A stretch of 64,000 nucleotides of DNA from an uncultured Acidimicrobiales bacterium. Lineage in GTDB: Bacteria > Actinomycetota > Acidimicrobiia > Acidimicrobiales > SZUA-35. Under the pieces are notes generated by a model. That model saw nothing but the letters and a program-made list of their open reading frames with translations. It had not been told where the DNA came from and did no database searches. Of this stretch, positions 33,075 through 49,884 are shown one piece after another. The position numbers and the translations under genes are program-made. Positions within the stretch are counted from its first letter, which is position 1, and each line of letters opens with the position of its first letter. The DNA is taken from assembly GCA_937958015.1 (NCBI GenBank), contig CALGOA010000050.1:1-64000 (forward strand). The letters are read 5' to 3'.

Positions 33075-33096
33075 GATACGAACACGTGTTCGTATC
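33075..33096. promoter_or_regulatory. LexA-type SOS box, 22-bp perfect palindrome GATACGAACACGTGTTCGTATC
   Basis: Core CGAAC-ACGT-GTTCG upstream of imuA'. Confidence 0.88.
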
Positions 33097-33104
33097 ATCG
33101 GGGG

Positions 33105-33815
33105 ATGAGCGGGCAGACATCCGGTTTGGCGACCATCGACCCCAGCGTGCTGGAGGCGGTCAGGCCCACAACCCTTAGCAAAGAGCAACTTCTCGACGTG
33201 CCCGAAGTGCTTCAGCCCCTCTTTCCGTGGAAGGGGTTGCAGCGGGGGTGGTCGGTTGGTGTGTCCGGGGGCGGAGCGTGGATGTTAACCGCCGCCATGT
33301 TGGCACCGTCGCTGGGGGAGGAGGGCTGGATGGCGGTGGTGGGTGCTCCGTTGATCAACCTGGCTGCTGCGGCCGAGGTCGGGTTGCGTATGGACCGGGT
33401 GTTGGTGGTCGATACCCCTCCCGCGGGGCAGTGGGGGACGGTGATCGCATCGTTGCTCGAGGCGGTGCAGGCCGTGGTGATCGAACCGGCAACGAGGATT
33501 GGCGCCCGGGATGCCCGAAGGATCGGGGCCCGATTGCGGGAGCAGCGGGGAACGTTGGTGCATCTCGATGGGGGATCGTCGTGGCCGAGTTCGCTCGACA
33601 TGGGACTTACCTGCGTTACCGACGAGTGGCAGGGCATCGGCGAAGGTCACGGGTATCTGCGCTATCGGCGGGTGTCGGTATCGGCGGTTGGGCGTCGCTC
33701 AGCATCTCGACCTCGATCGGTGTCGTTGTGGATGCCGGGTCCCGATGGGCCTCTCACCACCGCAGAACCGGTGGAGGAGTTGGCAACCGTTCGCCAGCTT
33801 CGTCCGGTCTCGTGA
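33105..33815 (+). CDS. imuA': ImuA'-like mutasome accessory protein
   Basis: LFPWKGLQRGWSVGVSGGGAWMLTAAML; GTGA overlap with imuB; SOS box. Confidence 0.8.
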   Translation: MSGQTSGLATIDPSVLEAVRPTTLSKEQLLDVPEVLQPLFPWKGLQRGWSVGVSGGGAWMLTAAMLAPSLGEEGWMAVVGAPLINLAAAAEVGLRMDRVLVVDTPPAGQWGTVIASLLEAVQAVVIEPATRIGARDARRIGARLREQRGTLVHLDGGSSWPSSLDMGLTCVTDEWQGIGEGHGYLRYRRVSVSAVGRRSASRPRSVSLWMPGPDGPLTTAEPVEELATVRQLRPVS

Positions 33816-35626
33816 CTCCCGAAGAGGTGCTCGCCACCGGACACCCCTCCACCCAACACCTTCAATCGAGCGCAGGCGAGCGAAGGCATGTTGAGCGAAG
33901 GCGTCCTGCTGCGGAGGGACGGAGCAGCCTAGAGGGCTCTATGGGCTTGATTGAGCGAAGCGAGACCGGAGCGACCCGGGAGCGAGGAACGAGCGGAGGC
34001 GAGCGAAGGCATGTAACCGCAACACGTTATGTAACGGTCCTCTGTCCCGACTGGCCCGTGGTGGCATGGGGGATCCCGTTGGAGGAGCCGGCGGCGGTGT
34101 TCGTCGCTAACCGGGTAGTGGCATGTAGTCCTGGTGCTCGTCGCGATGGAGTGGCGGTGGGGCAGCGTCGGCGAGACGCCCAGGGTCGATGCCCTGATCT
34201 CGCCATTCTTGAACAGGACATCGACCGTGAGGCCCGCCTCTTCGAACCGGTTGCGGGTGCGCTCACCGACATCACTCCCGAGGTTGAAGTGTCGGGACCC
34301 GGTGTCGTCGGCTTCCCGACGTTGGGTCCTTCCAAGTTCTTCGGCGGTGATGTCGCCCTGTCGGAGAAGATCGCCGAGACCCTTGCCCCGATCCTCGGTG
34401 ATCGGGGGAACCTGTATCTCGGTATCGCCGATGGGATGTTCGGATCCCGGCTCGCCGCAAAGACATCGGCCCAGGTGGGCGAGTTCGCAGGAGAGTCGAC
34501 GCCGATCATCGTCGATGCCGGTGGGAGCGCAGGATTCCTCGCCGGGTTTGGTGTGTCGGAACTGGAGTTGCCGGATCTGGCCGATGTCCTGATGCGTTTG
34601 GGGCTGCGGACGCTTGGTGACTTTGCAGCACTTCATCAGAACGATGTGGTCGACCGGTTCGGGGCCGAAGGGCGGTTGGCTCACCGGTTGGCGAAGGGGA
34701 TCGACCAGTTCCCACCCAACCTTCGCAAACCCGCAGCCGACCTTGCTGCCACGTGGTGGTTCGACCCTCCGACCGAACGGATCGACACCTGCGCGTTTGC
34801 GGCCAAAGCTCTGGCCGACGAATTGAATCGATCGTTGAACGATCGGGGCCTGGCCTGCATTCGGGTGGCGATCGAGGCCGAGACCGAAAACGGCGAGGAG
34901 TTCAGCCGGTTGTGGCGTCATGAGGGCACATTGTCCGCTGCTGCATTGGCCGAACGGGCCCGGTGGCAGATGGATGGATGGTTGCATCAGGCTCGAATGG
35001 GGCATGCGTCGGCGGGAAACAATCCCGATGCGGGCGTGGGTTCGGCTATCGCCCGACTGTCGCTGATCCCCGATGAAGTTGTTCCCGCCACCGGCCGTCA
35101 GTTGGGGTTCTGGGGTGGCCGGGCCGAACGGGCCGACGATGTGTCGCGGGCCGTGGCTCGCATTCAGGGAATCCTTGGGGCCGAGTCGGTGCGGGTACCC
35201 GAATGGAGTGGTGGGAGGGGTCCGGCCGAACAGATCCGGTTGATCCCGGCCGCTGCGGTGGACCTTGGCGAACCTCGTGACGGTGCGGATCCCAACCACA
35301 TCGCACAACCCTGGCCGGGTCAGATTCCGCCGCCATCACCAAGTCAGATCGGTTCCGAATGGGGTCGTATTGACCTTCTCTCCAATCGTGGTGAACCGGT
35401 GGCGGTCACGGGTAGGGGAGAGTTGGTCGGTTCCCCCCAGTTGATGGTGATCGGTGGCGATGAGGTGGAGGTCGACCGATGGGCAGGTCCCTGGCCGGCC
35501 GATGAACGCTGGTGGGATCCCGCCGCCCACCGCCGTCGGGCTCGTATGCAGGTGGTTCTTGAAGACGGGACCGCACACCTGTTGGTCACCGAACAACAGC
35601 AGTGGACAATCGAAGCCACCTACTAA
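33812..35626 (+). CDS. imuB: ImuB, Y-family polymerase-like mutasome protein with repeat-derived N-terminal extension
   Basis: YVTVLCPDWPVVAWG, ANRVVACSPGARRDGVAVGQRRRDAQGRCPDL, ADVLMRLGLRTLGDFAAL. Confidence 0.87.
   Translation: MTPEEVLATGHPSTQHLQSSAGERRHVERRRPAAEGRSSLEGSMGLIERSETGATRERGTSGGERRHVTATRYVTVLCPDWPVVAWGIPLEEPAAVFVANRVVACSPGARRDGVAVGQRRRDAQGRCPDLAILEQDIDREARLFEPVAGALTDITPEVEVSGPGVVGFPTLGPSKFFGGDVALSEKIAETLAPILGDRGNLYLGIADGMFGSRLAAKTSAQVGEFAGESTPIIVDAGGSAGFLAGFGVSELELPDLADVLMRLGLRTLGDFAALHQNDVVDRFGAEGRLAHRLAKGIDQFPPNLRKPAADLAATWWFDPPTERIDTCAFAAKALADELNRSLNDRGLACIRVAIEAETENGEEFSRLWRHEGTLSAAALAERARWQMDGWLHQARMGHASAGNNPDAGVGSAIARLSLIPDEVVPATGRQLGFWGGRAERADDVSRAVARIQGILGAESVRVPEWSGGRGPAEQIRLIPAAAVDLGEPRDGADPNHIAQPWPGQIPPPSPSQIGSEWGRIDLLSNRGEPVAVTGRGELVGSPQLMVIGGDEVEVDRWAGPWPADERWWDPAAHRRRARMQVVLEDGTAHLLVTEQQQWTIEATY
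33868..34014 (+). repeat. In-frame repetitive insert at ImuB N-terminus bounded by 24-nt direct repeats GAGCG(C/G)AGGCGAGCGAAGGCATGT
   Basis: Copies at 33868-33891 and 33991-34014 (23/24 identical); internal TTGAGCGAAG also repeated. Confidence 0.75.
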
Positions 35627-46137: not shown

Positions 46138-46151
46138 CGAACATGTGTTCG
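46138..46151. promoter_or_regulatory. LexA-type SOS box CGAACATGTGTTCG
   Basis: CGAAC-N4-GTTCG, 17 nt before the dnaE2 ATG; same downstream TATCATCG as at imuA'. Confidence 0.85.
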
Positions 46152-46167
46152 GTATCATCGACGCCCT

Positions 46168-49100
46168 ATGGGATGGATGAATCCGCCGAAGCCGTGGAAG
46201 GAGATCGAACAAGCGCTGTCGGATCGTCCTATCCAAACCCCGGTCCAAAAGGAAGACTTTCCGGCCTGGGCCAATGGTGGGGATTCGCCGGCATGGAGCA
46301 GAAAGCGGCACAGCTATGAGGCGCCGGAGGGCCTTCGGGGCATGCGAGGGGCAACCCCCTATGCCGAACTGCACTGTCATTCCAGCTTCAGTTTCCTGGA
46401 CGGGGCGTCGGACCCTGAAGACCTCGTGGAGGAGGCGGCTCGACTGGGTCTGGAGGCTCTTGCAATCACCGATCACGATGGTTTCTACGCCGTTCCCCGG
46501 TTCGCTGAGGCGGCGAAGGCCGTGGGCCTTCCAACGATCTTCGGAGCGGAGCTTTCGATGGGTATTCCGCGACCGCCCAAATCAGGAGCTGACCCGGCCC
46601 CCGATCCCCACGGTGCTCACCTGCTTCTGTTGGCTCGGGATCCCAAGGGATACGCCGCGTTGGCCAGAGTGATCAGCGAATCACAGCTGGCCGGCGAAAA
46701 GACCGCTCCCAACATGACCTTTGCCGATCTGGACCGATGGTTGCAGCCCGGTGAGGCCCGACATCTCCTGGCTCTCACCGGCTGTCGTAAGGGGACGGTT
46801 CGATCGGCCCTCGAAGCGGAGGGCCCGGCGGCAGCCGACCGCGAACTCTCCCATCTGATCGATGTCTTTGGTGCCGACGGTGTTGTTGTCGAACTCTGGG
46901 ATCACGGTTCACCGTTGGACTCGGCCCGCAACGACGCTCTGGTCCAGTTGGCCGCTCGACGAGGGCTGGCGGTGGTTGCCAGCAACAACGTCCACTACGC
47001 CACACCGGCCAAACACAAGCTGGCGTCGGCTATGGCGGCGGTTCGATCCCGGTCGTCGCTCGACGACATGGCTGGCTGGCTTCCGCCGTCGGCGGGGGCC
47101 CATCTTCGATCCGGGGCCGAACAGTCCCGGCGGTTCGCCCGTTATCCGGGGTCGGTCGAAATGGCCGCCGAAATCGGGTTGAGCTGTGCCTTCGATCTTG
47201 CCCTGGTGGCGCCGCAGTTGCCGCCCTATCCCACCCCCGACGGGATGGATGAAATGGCGTTCCTGCGACATCTCGTCGAAGAGGGTGGGGTTCATCGTTA
47301 CGGCACTCGTGGTGATGAGTGTGTTCCGGGAGCCTGGAAGCAGCTCGATCACGAGTTGGACCTGATCGAACATCTCGGCTTCGCCGGCTACTTCTTGGTG
47401 GTGTGGGACATCGTCGAGTTCTGCCGGAACGCCGACATCCTCTGTCAGGGCCGGGGGAGTGCTGCCAACTCAGCGGTCTGTTACGTGCTCGGGATCACCA
47501 AGGCCGATGCGGTAAGTCTCGGGCTGTTGTTCGAACGGTTTCTGGCTCCCGAACGTGATGGACCTCCTGATATCGATCTTGATATCGAGTCGGACCGCCG
47601 AGAAGAGGCGATCCAGTATGTCTATGAGAAACATGGACGACGTCACGCTGCGCAGGTTGCCAACGTGATCACCTACCGGTCCCGGTCCGCTGTTCGAGAT
47701 GCAGCCAAGGCGCTTGGATATGCCCCCGGCCAGCAGGACGCATTCAGTAAGTCGATCGATGGTTGGACCGGACTGAAAGCTCAAGTGTGTGCGGAACGGG
47801 CATCGGCCGGTGCGCCCGTCGTCGCCCGTCAACAGCGGGGCAACAGCTCGGGTTATTCCTCAGGACCTGCCCCTGAACCCCTTCCATCCGCTCGTGTTGC
47901 GACCCGGCAGCGAGGAACGAGGGGAGGCGAGCAGGGGCAAGGTAGTGAATTGCCTGACGATGTGGTCGAGTTGGCGATGGAATTCGAGAACCTGCCCCGC
48001 CACCTTGGAATCCATTCGGGCGGGATGGTGATGTGCGATCGGCCGGTGATCGAGGTGTGTCCTGTCGAGTGGGGGCGGATGCAGGATCGGACTGTTCTTC
48101 AGTGGGACAAGGAAGACTGTGCAATCGCCGGTCTGGTCAAGTTCGATCTGCTCGGCCTCGGAATGCTGAGCGCCCTTCACTACGCCGTCGATCTGATCGA
48201 GGAACATCACGACACCCGGCTCGATCTTGCTGCACTGCCCCAGGAGGACGAGGTGTACGAAATGCTCTGCCGGGCCGATTCGGTTGGTGTCTTCCAGATC
48301 GAATCACGCGCCCAGATGAGCACCCTGCCCCGTCTGAAGCCCCGGAATTTCTACGACCTCGTTGTGGAGATCGCGCTCATTCGTCCCGGGCCGATTCAAG
48401 GTGGGTCCGTCCATCCCTATATTCGCAGACGCAACGGTCAGGAGCCGGTGACGTATCTTCACCCCCTCCTGAAACCGGCACTGGAGAAGACGCTTGGGAT
48501 CCCTCTGTTTCAGGAGCAGCTGATGCAGATGGCAATCGATGTATCGGGGTTCAGTCCGGCCGAGGCGGATGAACTTCGACGGGCCATGGGTTCCAAACGC
48601 AGCGTGGCTCGAATGACCAATCTGAAGGAACGGCTCTGTGCCGGCATGGCCGAGCGGGGTATCGACGAAGACATCCAGGAGCAGATCTGGGTCAAGTTGG
48701 TCGCCTTTGCCAACTACGGCTTTCCCGAGAGCCATTCGATCTCGTTCGCCTACCTGGTGTACGCATCCAGTTGGATCAAACTCCACTACCCGGCAGCGTT
48801 CTGTGCCGCTCTCCTCAATGCGCAGCCGATGGGTTTCTATTCACCTCATTCCCTGGTGCAGGACGCCCGTCGCCACGGTGTCCCCACCCTCACCCCCGAC
48901 ATCAATCTCTCCGGTGCCGACGCCGATCTCTGCTATCCCTCCGGGGGCCGTTCCGTCGCCACGGAGGCGCAGCCTCCGGGCGTTCCACAAGGCGCTCCAT
49001 CAGATGTCACCGGTCCAAACAATCCATCCCTCATCCCTCCGGGAGGACGCAACGACTGTTCCGTCGCCACGGAGGCGCAGCCTCTGGACGTTCCACAAAG

Positions 49101-49884
49101 CGCTCCATCAGATTCGGTTCCGCCGAAACATCTGACAGACCTTGGTAGGGCTACGTGGGCCCATCAATTTGATCACGGTCAGGCAATACGACTTGGTATC
49201 GGGTCGGTGCGGGGGATCGGTGATGACCTGGCCGAGACCATCGCCACCAACCGGCCATATCGCTCGATCGAAGAGGTGGCCCGCAAGACCGGCGCCAGCA
49301 AGGAACAGATGGAGGCTTTGGCAACCGCCGGTTGTTTCGATTCGTTCGGTTCGGATCGTCGTCAGGCTCTCTGGACCGCCGGTGCGGTGTCGGCCGCCAA
49401 CCGGCCCGGCACCCTGCCGGGCATCGTGACCGGTGTCCACGCCCCACAGTTGCCAGGTATGGAGGATCAGGAGGAAGCTCTCGCTGATCTGTGGGCGACA
49501 GGAGTGGCTCCGGAGGGCCACCCCACCATCTTTGTGCGGGACGAACTCAACGATCTGGGTGCACTGAGAGCGACCGACCTTCAACGGATCGATCAGGGCA
49601 AGAAGGTGATGGTTGGTGGAGTTGTTACCCATCGTCAGCGTCCGGCGACCGCATCGGGGGTTACCTTCATGAGCCTCGAGGACGAAACGGGTTTAATGAA
49701 TGTGGTGATCAGCGTCGGTTGCTGGGCTCGATTCCGGCGGGTAGCTCGTAATCACCCGGCTCTGTTGATTCGGGGCCGCCTGGAACGGACCGAGACCGGG
49801 GGCACCCCGGTCGTAAATATCGTGGCTGAACGGCTCGACCCGTTGGTGCTTGGGTCGGGGTCGATGTCACGCGACTTCCGATAG
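46168..49884 (+). CDS. dnaE2: Error-prone DNA polymerase III alpha subunit
   Basis: YAELHCHSSFSFLDGAS PHP; RGSAANSAVCYVLGIT; PDIDLDIESDRREEAIQYVY; LPRHLGIHSGGMVMCDRP; FPESHSISFAYLVYASSWIKLHYPA. Confidence 0.95.
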   Translation: MGWMNPPKPWKEIEQALSDRPIQTPVQKEDFPAWANGGDSPAWSRKRHSYEAPEGLRGMRGATPYAELHCHSSFSFLDGASDPEDLVEEAARLGLEALAITDHDGFYAVPRFAEAAKAVGLPTIFGAELSMGIPRPPKSGADPAPDPHGAHLLLLARDPKGYAALARVISESQLAGEKTAPNMTFADLDRWLQPGEARHLLALTGCRKGTVRSALEAEGPAAADRELSHLIDVFGADGVVVELWDHGSPLDSARNDALVQLAARRGLAVVASNNVHYATPAKHKLASAMAAVRSRSSLDDMAGWLPPSAGAHLRSGAEQSRRFARYPGSVEMAAEIGLSCAFDLALVAPQLPPYPTPDGMDEMAFLRHLVEEGGVHRYGTRGDECVPGAWKQLDHELDLIEHLGFAGYFLVVWDIVEFCRNADILCQGRGSAANSAVCYVLGITKADAVSLGLLFERFLAPERDGPPDIDLDIESDRREEAIQYVYEKHGRRHAAQVANVITYRSRSAVRDAAKALGYAPGQQDAFSKSIDGWTGLKAQVCAERASAGAPVVARQQRGNSSGYSSGPAPEPLPSARVATRQRGTRGGEQGQGSELPDDVVELAMEFENLPRHLGIHSGGMVMCDRPVIEVCPVEWGRMQDRTVLQWDKEDCAIAGLVKFDLLGLGMLSALHYAVDLIEEHHDTRLDLAALPQEDEVYEMLCRADSVGVFQIESRAQMSTLPRLKPRNFYDLVVEIALIRPGPIQGGSVHPYIRRRNGQEPVTYLHPLLKPALEKTLGIPLFQEQLMQMAIDVSGFSPAEADELRRAMGSKRSVARMTNLKERLCAGMAERGIDEDIQEQIWVKLVAFANYGFPESHSISFAYLVYASSWIKLHYPAAFCAALLNAQPMGFYSPHSLVQDARRHGVPTLTPDINLSGADADLCYPSGGRSVATEAQPPGVPQGAPSDVTGPNNPSLIPPGGRNDCSVATEAQPLDVPQSAPSDSVPPKHLTDLGRATWAHQFDHGQAIRLGIGSVRGIGDDLAETIATNRPYRSIEEVARKTGASKEQMEALATAGCFDSFGSDRRQALWTAGAVSAANRPGTLPGIVTGVHAPQLPGMEDQEEALADLWATGVAPEGHPTIFVRDELNDLGALRATDLQRIDQGKKVMVGGVVTHRQRPATASGVTFMSLEDETGLMNVVISVGCWARFRRVARNHPALLIRGRLERTETGGTPVVNIVAERLDPLVLGSGSMSRDFR
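47899..47932 (+). repeat. Second copy of imuB element core inside dnaE2
   Basis: 32/34 identity to 33971-34004; encodes ATRQRGTRGGE versus ATRERGTSGGE in the same phase. Confidence 0.75.
48951..49113 (+). repeat. Duplicated palindromic insert in dnaE2
   Basis: 55-nt repeats at 48951-49005 and 49059-49113 (52/55 identical), 108-nt period; hairpin GGAGGC-GCA-GCCTCC at 48963-48977. Confidence 0.8.

Follow-up and report, generated by a model that had tools for sequence, protein, structure and literature searches.

MIRUs are apparently mobile; their insertions fall on start codons, and the coupled ORF has a spacing of −4 (2025 review, PMC12548453). RPEs are structured repeats of ~105–150 bp that occur as intergenic copies and as in-frame fusions in conserved genes (PMC2229807; PMC10969869), and ERIC/RU-1 and Correia (NEMIS) are small dispersed repeats with foldable RNA whose ORFs can fuse with genes (PMC2229807). 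STAR elements of Staphylococcus are interspersed intergenic direct repeats (PMC3532100). Small repeats captured as coding sequence have mainly been described in Rickettsia and enterobacteria, and no report of coding capture of a MIRU was found in the literature searched. Here we describe a repeat family of an uncultured Acidimicrobiales bacterium, element A, one copy of which probably forms the N-terminus of ImuB.

The window is a 64,000-nt stretch of DNA, positions 1 to 64,000 of contig CALGOA010000050.1 (GCA_937958015.1); its features are listed in Table 1. The imuB GTG at 33812 overlaps the imuA' TGA (33813–33815) as GTGA, and the two genes overlap as an in-frame GTGA or ATGA in five of five genomes of the genus (this genome, G000, plus G001–G004), so GTG 33812 is of the ancestral type and is favored as the start. 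Perfect CGAACNNNNGTTCG sites resembling SOS boxes stand directly 5' of both imuA' (33079–33092) and dnaE2 (46138–46151). The motif at 33079 is one that we take to be an SOS (LexA) box, and the two sites are consistent with one SOS mutasome regulon divided across 13 kb. The original prediction had reported a 24-nt direct repeat at the imuB N-terminus (33868–33891 and 33991–34014, 23/24 identical). This repeat is present and can be extended to 24 of 25 identical positions (33867–33891 and 33990–34014, spacing 123 nt). It is far above shuffles: the best internal 24-nt repeat had 14–17 matches in 60 dinucleotide-preserving shuffles of 33812–34060, versus 23 observed.

Table 1. Features of the imuA'-imuB locus and the related dnaE2 fragment (window coordinates).
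Feature	Position	Strand	Remark
SOS (LexA) box-like site CGAACACGTGTTCG	33079–33092	+	Exact match to CGAACNNNNGTTCG; 12 nt 5' of ATG 33105
imuA', mutasome accessory factor	33105–33815	+	NF058630 ImuA', 111 bits against a cut-off of 65
imuB ORF from GTG 33812	33812–35626	+	PF00817 IMS (Y-family) at residues 92–195
Native N-terminal linker VTPEEVLATGHPSTQHLQS	33812–33866	+	GHPS part resembles same-genus G003 VISGHPSVLSTRM
Element A, imuB copy (putatively captured repeat)	33867–34014	+	148 bp, counting the duplicated 5' tail
Upstream partial copy of the element A tail	33867–33891	+	Direct repeat; tail-core-tail layout at 19/47 loci
Conserved 5' hairpin of element A, GCTGC-GGAGGGACGGA-GCAGC	33908–33928	+	
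Candidate alternative imuB start	33932–33943	+	GAGG, 5 nt, ATG 33941 in the imuB frame; predicted from sequence
Conserved core of element A TTGATTGAGCGAAGCGAGACCGGAGCGACCC	33947–33977	+	
Element A tail, 3' copy of the direct repeat	33990–34014	+	Abuts the conserved ImuB coding region
Conserved ImuB RYVTVLCPDWPVVAWG..., including stop	34025–35626	+	
Element A fragment in the dnaE2 variable linker, LPSARVATRQRGTRGGEQGQGS	47890–47955	+	In frame; BLAST match 47899–47932

BLAST of the imuB region against its own genome found eight further places, and the imuB copy gave independent matches on other contigs at 5.1e-23 and 1.1e-21. A sequence-only model of 109 positions was built from 19 copies and matched the imuB copy over its full length (E = 2.1e-22, this copy being one of the model's 19 sources). 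At E ≤ 0.01 the model found 18 copies in this genome; the same-genus genomes held 13 (G001), 38 (G002), 26 (G003) and 11 (G004), and other genera of the family 0–3 per genome (13 genomes). No copy was found with the model in two genomes of other families, nor, under stricter filters, in a sample of 117 further genomes from the order. With up to 3 mismatches, the hairpin motif GCTGCGGAGGGACGGAGCAGC occurred 13 times here, 27 times in G002, 1–6 times in the other three same-genus genomes and 0–3 times per genome in 11 genomes of other genera, with 0–3 per genome for the reversed pattern used as a control. Absence of the core elsewhere in the genome, which would have refuted the original prediction, was thus not observed. 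Its recurrence in dnaE2, noted in the original prediction, understated the case: dnaE2 does carry a 34-nt fragment, and the whole unit recurs across the genome. We conclude that element A is a genus-specific structured interspersed repeat family. It is apparently undescribed until now, searches of the open literature having returned no description of it.

The element A unit is ~100–165 bp long. It opens with a 5' hairpin, followed after a ~20–25-nt spacer by a purine-rich core that is conserved, then by a variable hairpin and finally by a tail that is again conserved. Array spacings were 100, 105, 107, 121 and 123; one array of at least five copies in G003 (contig C41:11898–12364) has an exact 100-bp spacing. 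A second, locus-specific upstream copy of the tail was seen in 19 of 47 copies, so the direct repeat at imuB is a partial tandem duplication. The 24-nt repeat, originally taken to flank the element, is thus a part of the repeat itself, and a target-site duplication was ruled out. No long palindrome was seen in element A, and neither the alignment nor a scan for repeats near the imuB copy showed inverted termini. Element A does not fit the description of a MITE, given this result and a direct repeat that is a duplicated tail.

Structure was visible only in the alignment; folded alone, the imuB copy did no better than shuffles (z = −0.94), and neither strand gave a significant fold. In the alignment 97.6% of cells were paired and 17 cells were changed on both sides, the number of independent changes being smaller than that of cells since the alignment holds subfamilies. 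The long-range helix showed three pair types at columns 63/123. None of 500 shuffles reached the covariation score, and slid versions scored far lower. The consensus comprises only a 5-bp hairpin and short split helices, with a conserved purine-rich loop. In another genus (L119 and L134 in G011, L120 in G020) the hairpin reads GCGGC...GCCGC where element A has GCTGC...GCAGC; the change is compensatory, the loop is unchanged and the downstream part differs. Rfam covariance models gave no match at gathering in the window, and five loci searched at E ≤ 1 gave none either.

Within the family, ImuB mostly starts from a few to ~40 residues ahead of the CPDWP motif, with unrelated sequence and no repeat. 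The same-genus G003 protein reads VISGHPSVLSTRMCVVMCPDWP, versus VTPEEVLATGHPSTQHLQ, the repeat and then TATRYVTVLCPDWP in this genome. Longer linkers were found at the same place in G001 and G002, unrelated in sequence to the repeat, which indicates that the ImuB linker site is generally permissive and varies by other routes too. The alignment of orthologues, put forward with the original prediction as a way to refute it, thus showed that the extension is not conserved in other ImuB. Among the genomes compared, the sequences support a repeat at the imuB site that is specific to this species, represented by a single strain. Its genome is a MAG of 252 contigs, 88.7% complete, in which the junction might contain a base error or a local misassembly. 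Mobility, which the original prediction also proposed, is suggested by the distribution of element A and by this comparison of filled and unfilled sites; no transposase or terminal inverted repeat that would account for its movement was identified.

The frame from GTG 33812 is open through the repeat segment into conserved ImuB. Within the element copy, the imuB frame is the sole stop-free sense frame of the three, the other two having two stops each. No in-frame ATG, GTG or TTG lies between the repeat and the conserved ImuB core; therefore translation must start in or before the repeat and, the copy being free of stops in this frame, the repeat is expected to be translated. Every plausible imuB start appears, as judged from the sequence, to add repeat-encoded residues to ImuB. 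The in-frame segment announced as "about 60 codons" is there, with 71 codons from GTG 33812 to RYVTV, ~50 of them repeat. Codon usage of the element (−0.17 per codon, against 0.22 ± 0.09 in 50-codon windows of the ImuB core) is as expected of non-native coding sequence. AlphaFold gave pLDDT ~25–35 for residues 1–69 and a confident fold from about residue 72. This low score is partly built in, as all other rows of the alignment start only near residue 72, so the model indicates only that there is no confident folding in the extension. With a simple gene finder based on codon usage, the imuB start fell at 34058, within the conserved core, an example of how gene callers may misplace starts at such loci.

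We consider it quite likely that 33867–34014 is a copy of element A captured in frame as the N-terminus of ImuB, translated and most likely tolerated. On the simplest account, element A would be a non-autonomous repeat that spreads by some route and survives mainly at gene edges, duplicates locally in tandem while readily gaining partial copies, and may occasionally be retained as part of a protein whose linker can accommodate it. The copy at imuB lies between the imuA'-coupled start and the first conserved ImuB residues, and would add ~50 residues from GTG 33812 or ~25 from ATG 33941. The product would be an Arg/Glu/Gly-rich, probably disordered tail before the folded domain, most likely tolerated rather than useful.

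A second gene of this genome shows the same outcome. In an AtuA-family gene (L239, contig C49:15694–15773) element A replaces the usual start region; the ORF has LIERSENEATRERGTSGGERSH ahead of ITIANCSGFFGD, where relatives begin with, for example, MPEIRIANCSGF or MTDPIRIANCSGF. It reads ...LIERSENEATRERGTSGGERSHITIANCSGFFGD, with the repeat in the same frame as in imuB; this is the sole frame open through TTGATTGAG in the imuB copy, and the shared frame is therefore not independent evidence. AtuA in G002, G005, G011, G012 and G020 starts at an ATG 4–15 codons before IANCSGF or VANCSGF without the repeat, and that of same-genus G004 has a longer start of unrelated sequence. In dnaE2, the match to element A is confined to the 34-nt fragment, which keeps the reading frame and falls in a linker. 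Another in-frame dnaE2 insertion belongs to element B, a repeat family unrelated to element A (48940–49115, ~57 residues); this insertion is absent from G001–G004. Element B matched 29 places here and 37 in G002, many of them shorter pieces and several in inverted pairs; only the dnaE2 copy lay inside a gene call among the copies examined with context. A further candidate capture, the linker of a lipoyl acyltransferase (E2) in this genome (L206, contig C163:19090–19139), resembles the element A tail in its DNA, and the linkers of its relatives are as long or longer.

ImuB might instead start inside the element at ATG 33941, the repeat supplying both ribosome-binding site and start and so uncoupling imuB from imuA'. 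This is a variant of the capture explanation, because the N-terminus would be repeat-encoded either way. A plausible Shine-Dalgarno sequence precedes the in-frame ATG at a 5-nt spacing, and at the corresponding position of the atuA capture an in-frame TTG is preceded by the purine-rich AGGGGAGGA. However, the overlap with imuA', shared by the five genomes compared in the genus, favors GTG, and we regard the internal start as possible, if rather doubtful.

The placement of element A was analyzed for 49 distinct copies with context, using a simple codon-usage finder trained on the window genes, whose gene starts are approximate. Relative to the flanking genes, 15 copies were co-directional, 11 lay between convergent genes, 10 had both genes antisense and 4 were divergent, and for 9 of the 49 a gene call was missing on one side. 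Where the downstream gene was antisense (25 cases), its stop codon fell no more than 2 nt from the element end in 13. Several copies abut an ATG. In L132, L183 and L191 an ORF over the element clearly terminates in the ATGA that starts the next gene; other copies lack such an ORF. Element A chiefly fills short intergenic gaps, its ends often falling on stop or start codons. The original prediction was right to see a dispersed repeat copy in the ImuB frame, but its term "mobile intragenic repeat" suits only a few copies, since most of the family lies between genes, at their edges. Copies stand in look-alike neighborhoods in two species, at a radical-SAM-like gene in G000 and G004 and at an electron-transfer-flavoprotein-like gene in G001 and G003. 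At the former (L141 in G000, L142 in G004) element A lies 5' of what seems to be the same gene; the shared position suggests an old copy kept vertically.

Such placement might be taken as a hint that element A is a functional intercistronic RNA signal for processing, stability or translation control, which would tune imuA'-imuB coupling at this locus and be read through as a by-product. The covarying structure with its conserved loop, the exact placement at stop and start codons, the three ORFs ending in a downstream ATGA and the look-alike neighborhoods in two species would all fit such a signal. However, the orientation relative to genes is mixed, with convergent and doubly antisense copies beside the co-directional ones; orthologous sites, imuB for instance, lack the element in other species; the tandem arrays and species-specific subfamilies resemble amplification; and no Rfam family matches. 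We therefore consider a regulatory signal unlikely.

An assembly artefact joining an intergenic repeat to imuB is conceivable for a MAG, and repeats do occur at contig ends in same-genus G002. Here, however, the element sits well inside a 67.8-kb contig, mid-contig, the gene order imuA'-imuB is the usual one and the GTGA overlap is intact, and a second gene has a junction of this kind, all of which makes an artefact very improbable. That the segment is a chance low-complexity Arg/Glu/Gly linker unrelated to any repeat family, as free variation of the linkers within the genus might suggest, is refuted by the BLAST, hairpin-motif and full-length model matches.

If in-frame capture by ImuB holds, a MIRU-like repeat of an uncultivated actinobacterial lineage now forms the beginning of a protein of DNA repair, while sister species have the site unfilled and another gene of this genome has met the same fate. 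The step from repeat to protein sequence is open to proteomics, through SETGATR or GTSGGER joined to ATRYVTVLCPDWPVVAWG. More broadly, and tentatively, element A may be a new structured gene-edge family, limited to one Acidimicrobiales genus and close relatives of that genus. By inserting at the start of a gene it could displace the native start codon and turn into an obligatory N-terminal leader, as may have happened here to a gene of the SOS mutasome; the nearby SOS-boxed dnaE2 holds insertions from two repeat families. We regard this broader reading as possible, though somewhat less likely than not. Taken as a whole, the original interpretation is partly supported.

Among known systems, REP/RAYT did not fit: a PF01797 Y1-type transposase is encoded by a single gene each in G000, G001 and G002, with no element A in the flanks examined, and was not found in G003 or G004, though G003 has 26 copies of element A. 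ERIC/RU-1 and Correia (NEMIS) are described as MITE-like with terminal inverted repeats, whereas in element A the tail duplications are direct and inverted termini were not found. STAR would share with element A the character of interspersed intergenic direct repeats and differ in lineage and unit. RPEs, to which the original prediction had compared the element, are similar in outcome: element A also forms dispersed copies of ~100–150 bp in one genus, with apparent in-frame fusions. It differs in having no long palindrome or terminal inverted repeats and in its captures, two N-terminal ones (imuB, atuA) plus the dnaE2 fragment versus at least 19 for RPEs. Gene-boundary placement, tandem units and stop/start overlap instead bring it closer to MIRUs, a likeness that concerns described features, not sequence. 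Like MIRUs, element A consists of short tandem units dispersed between genes of an actinobacterium, with termini on or overlapping stop and start codons, and some copies hold an ORF ending in the next gene's ATGA. Its units are somewhat longer than the roughly 50–100 bp of MIRUs; unlike in MIRUs, many copies are antisense or lie between convergent genes, and few have a coupled internal ORF. Going by the available literature, the closest analogues would be MIRUs for placement and RPEs for coding capture, and we claim membership in neither; element A seems to behave more like MIRUs, with occasional RPE-like capture.
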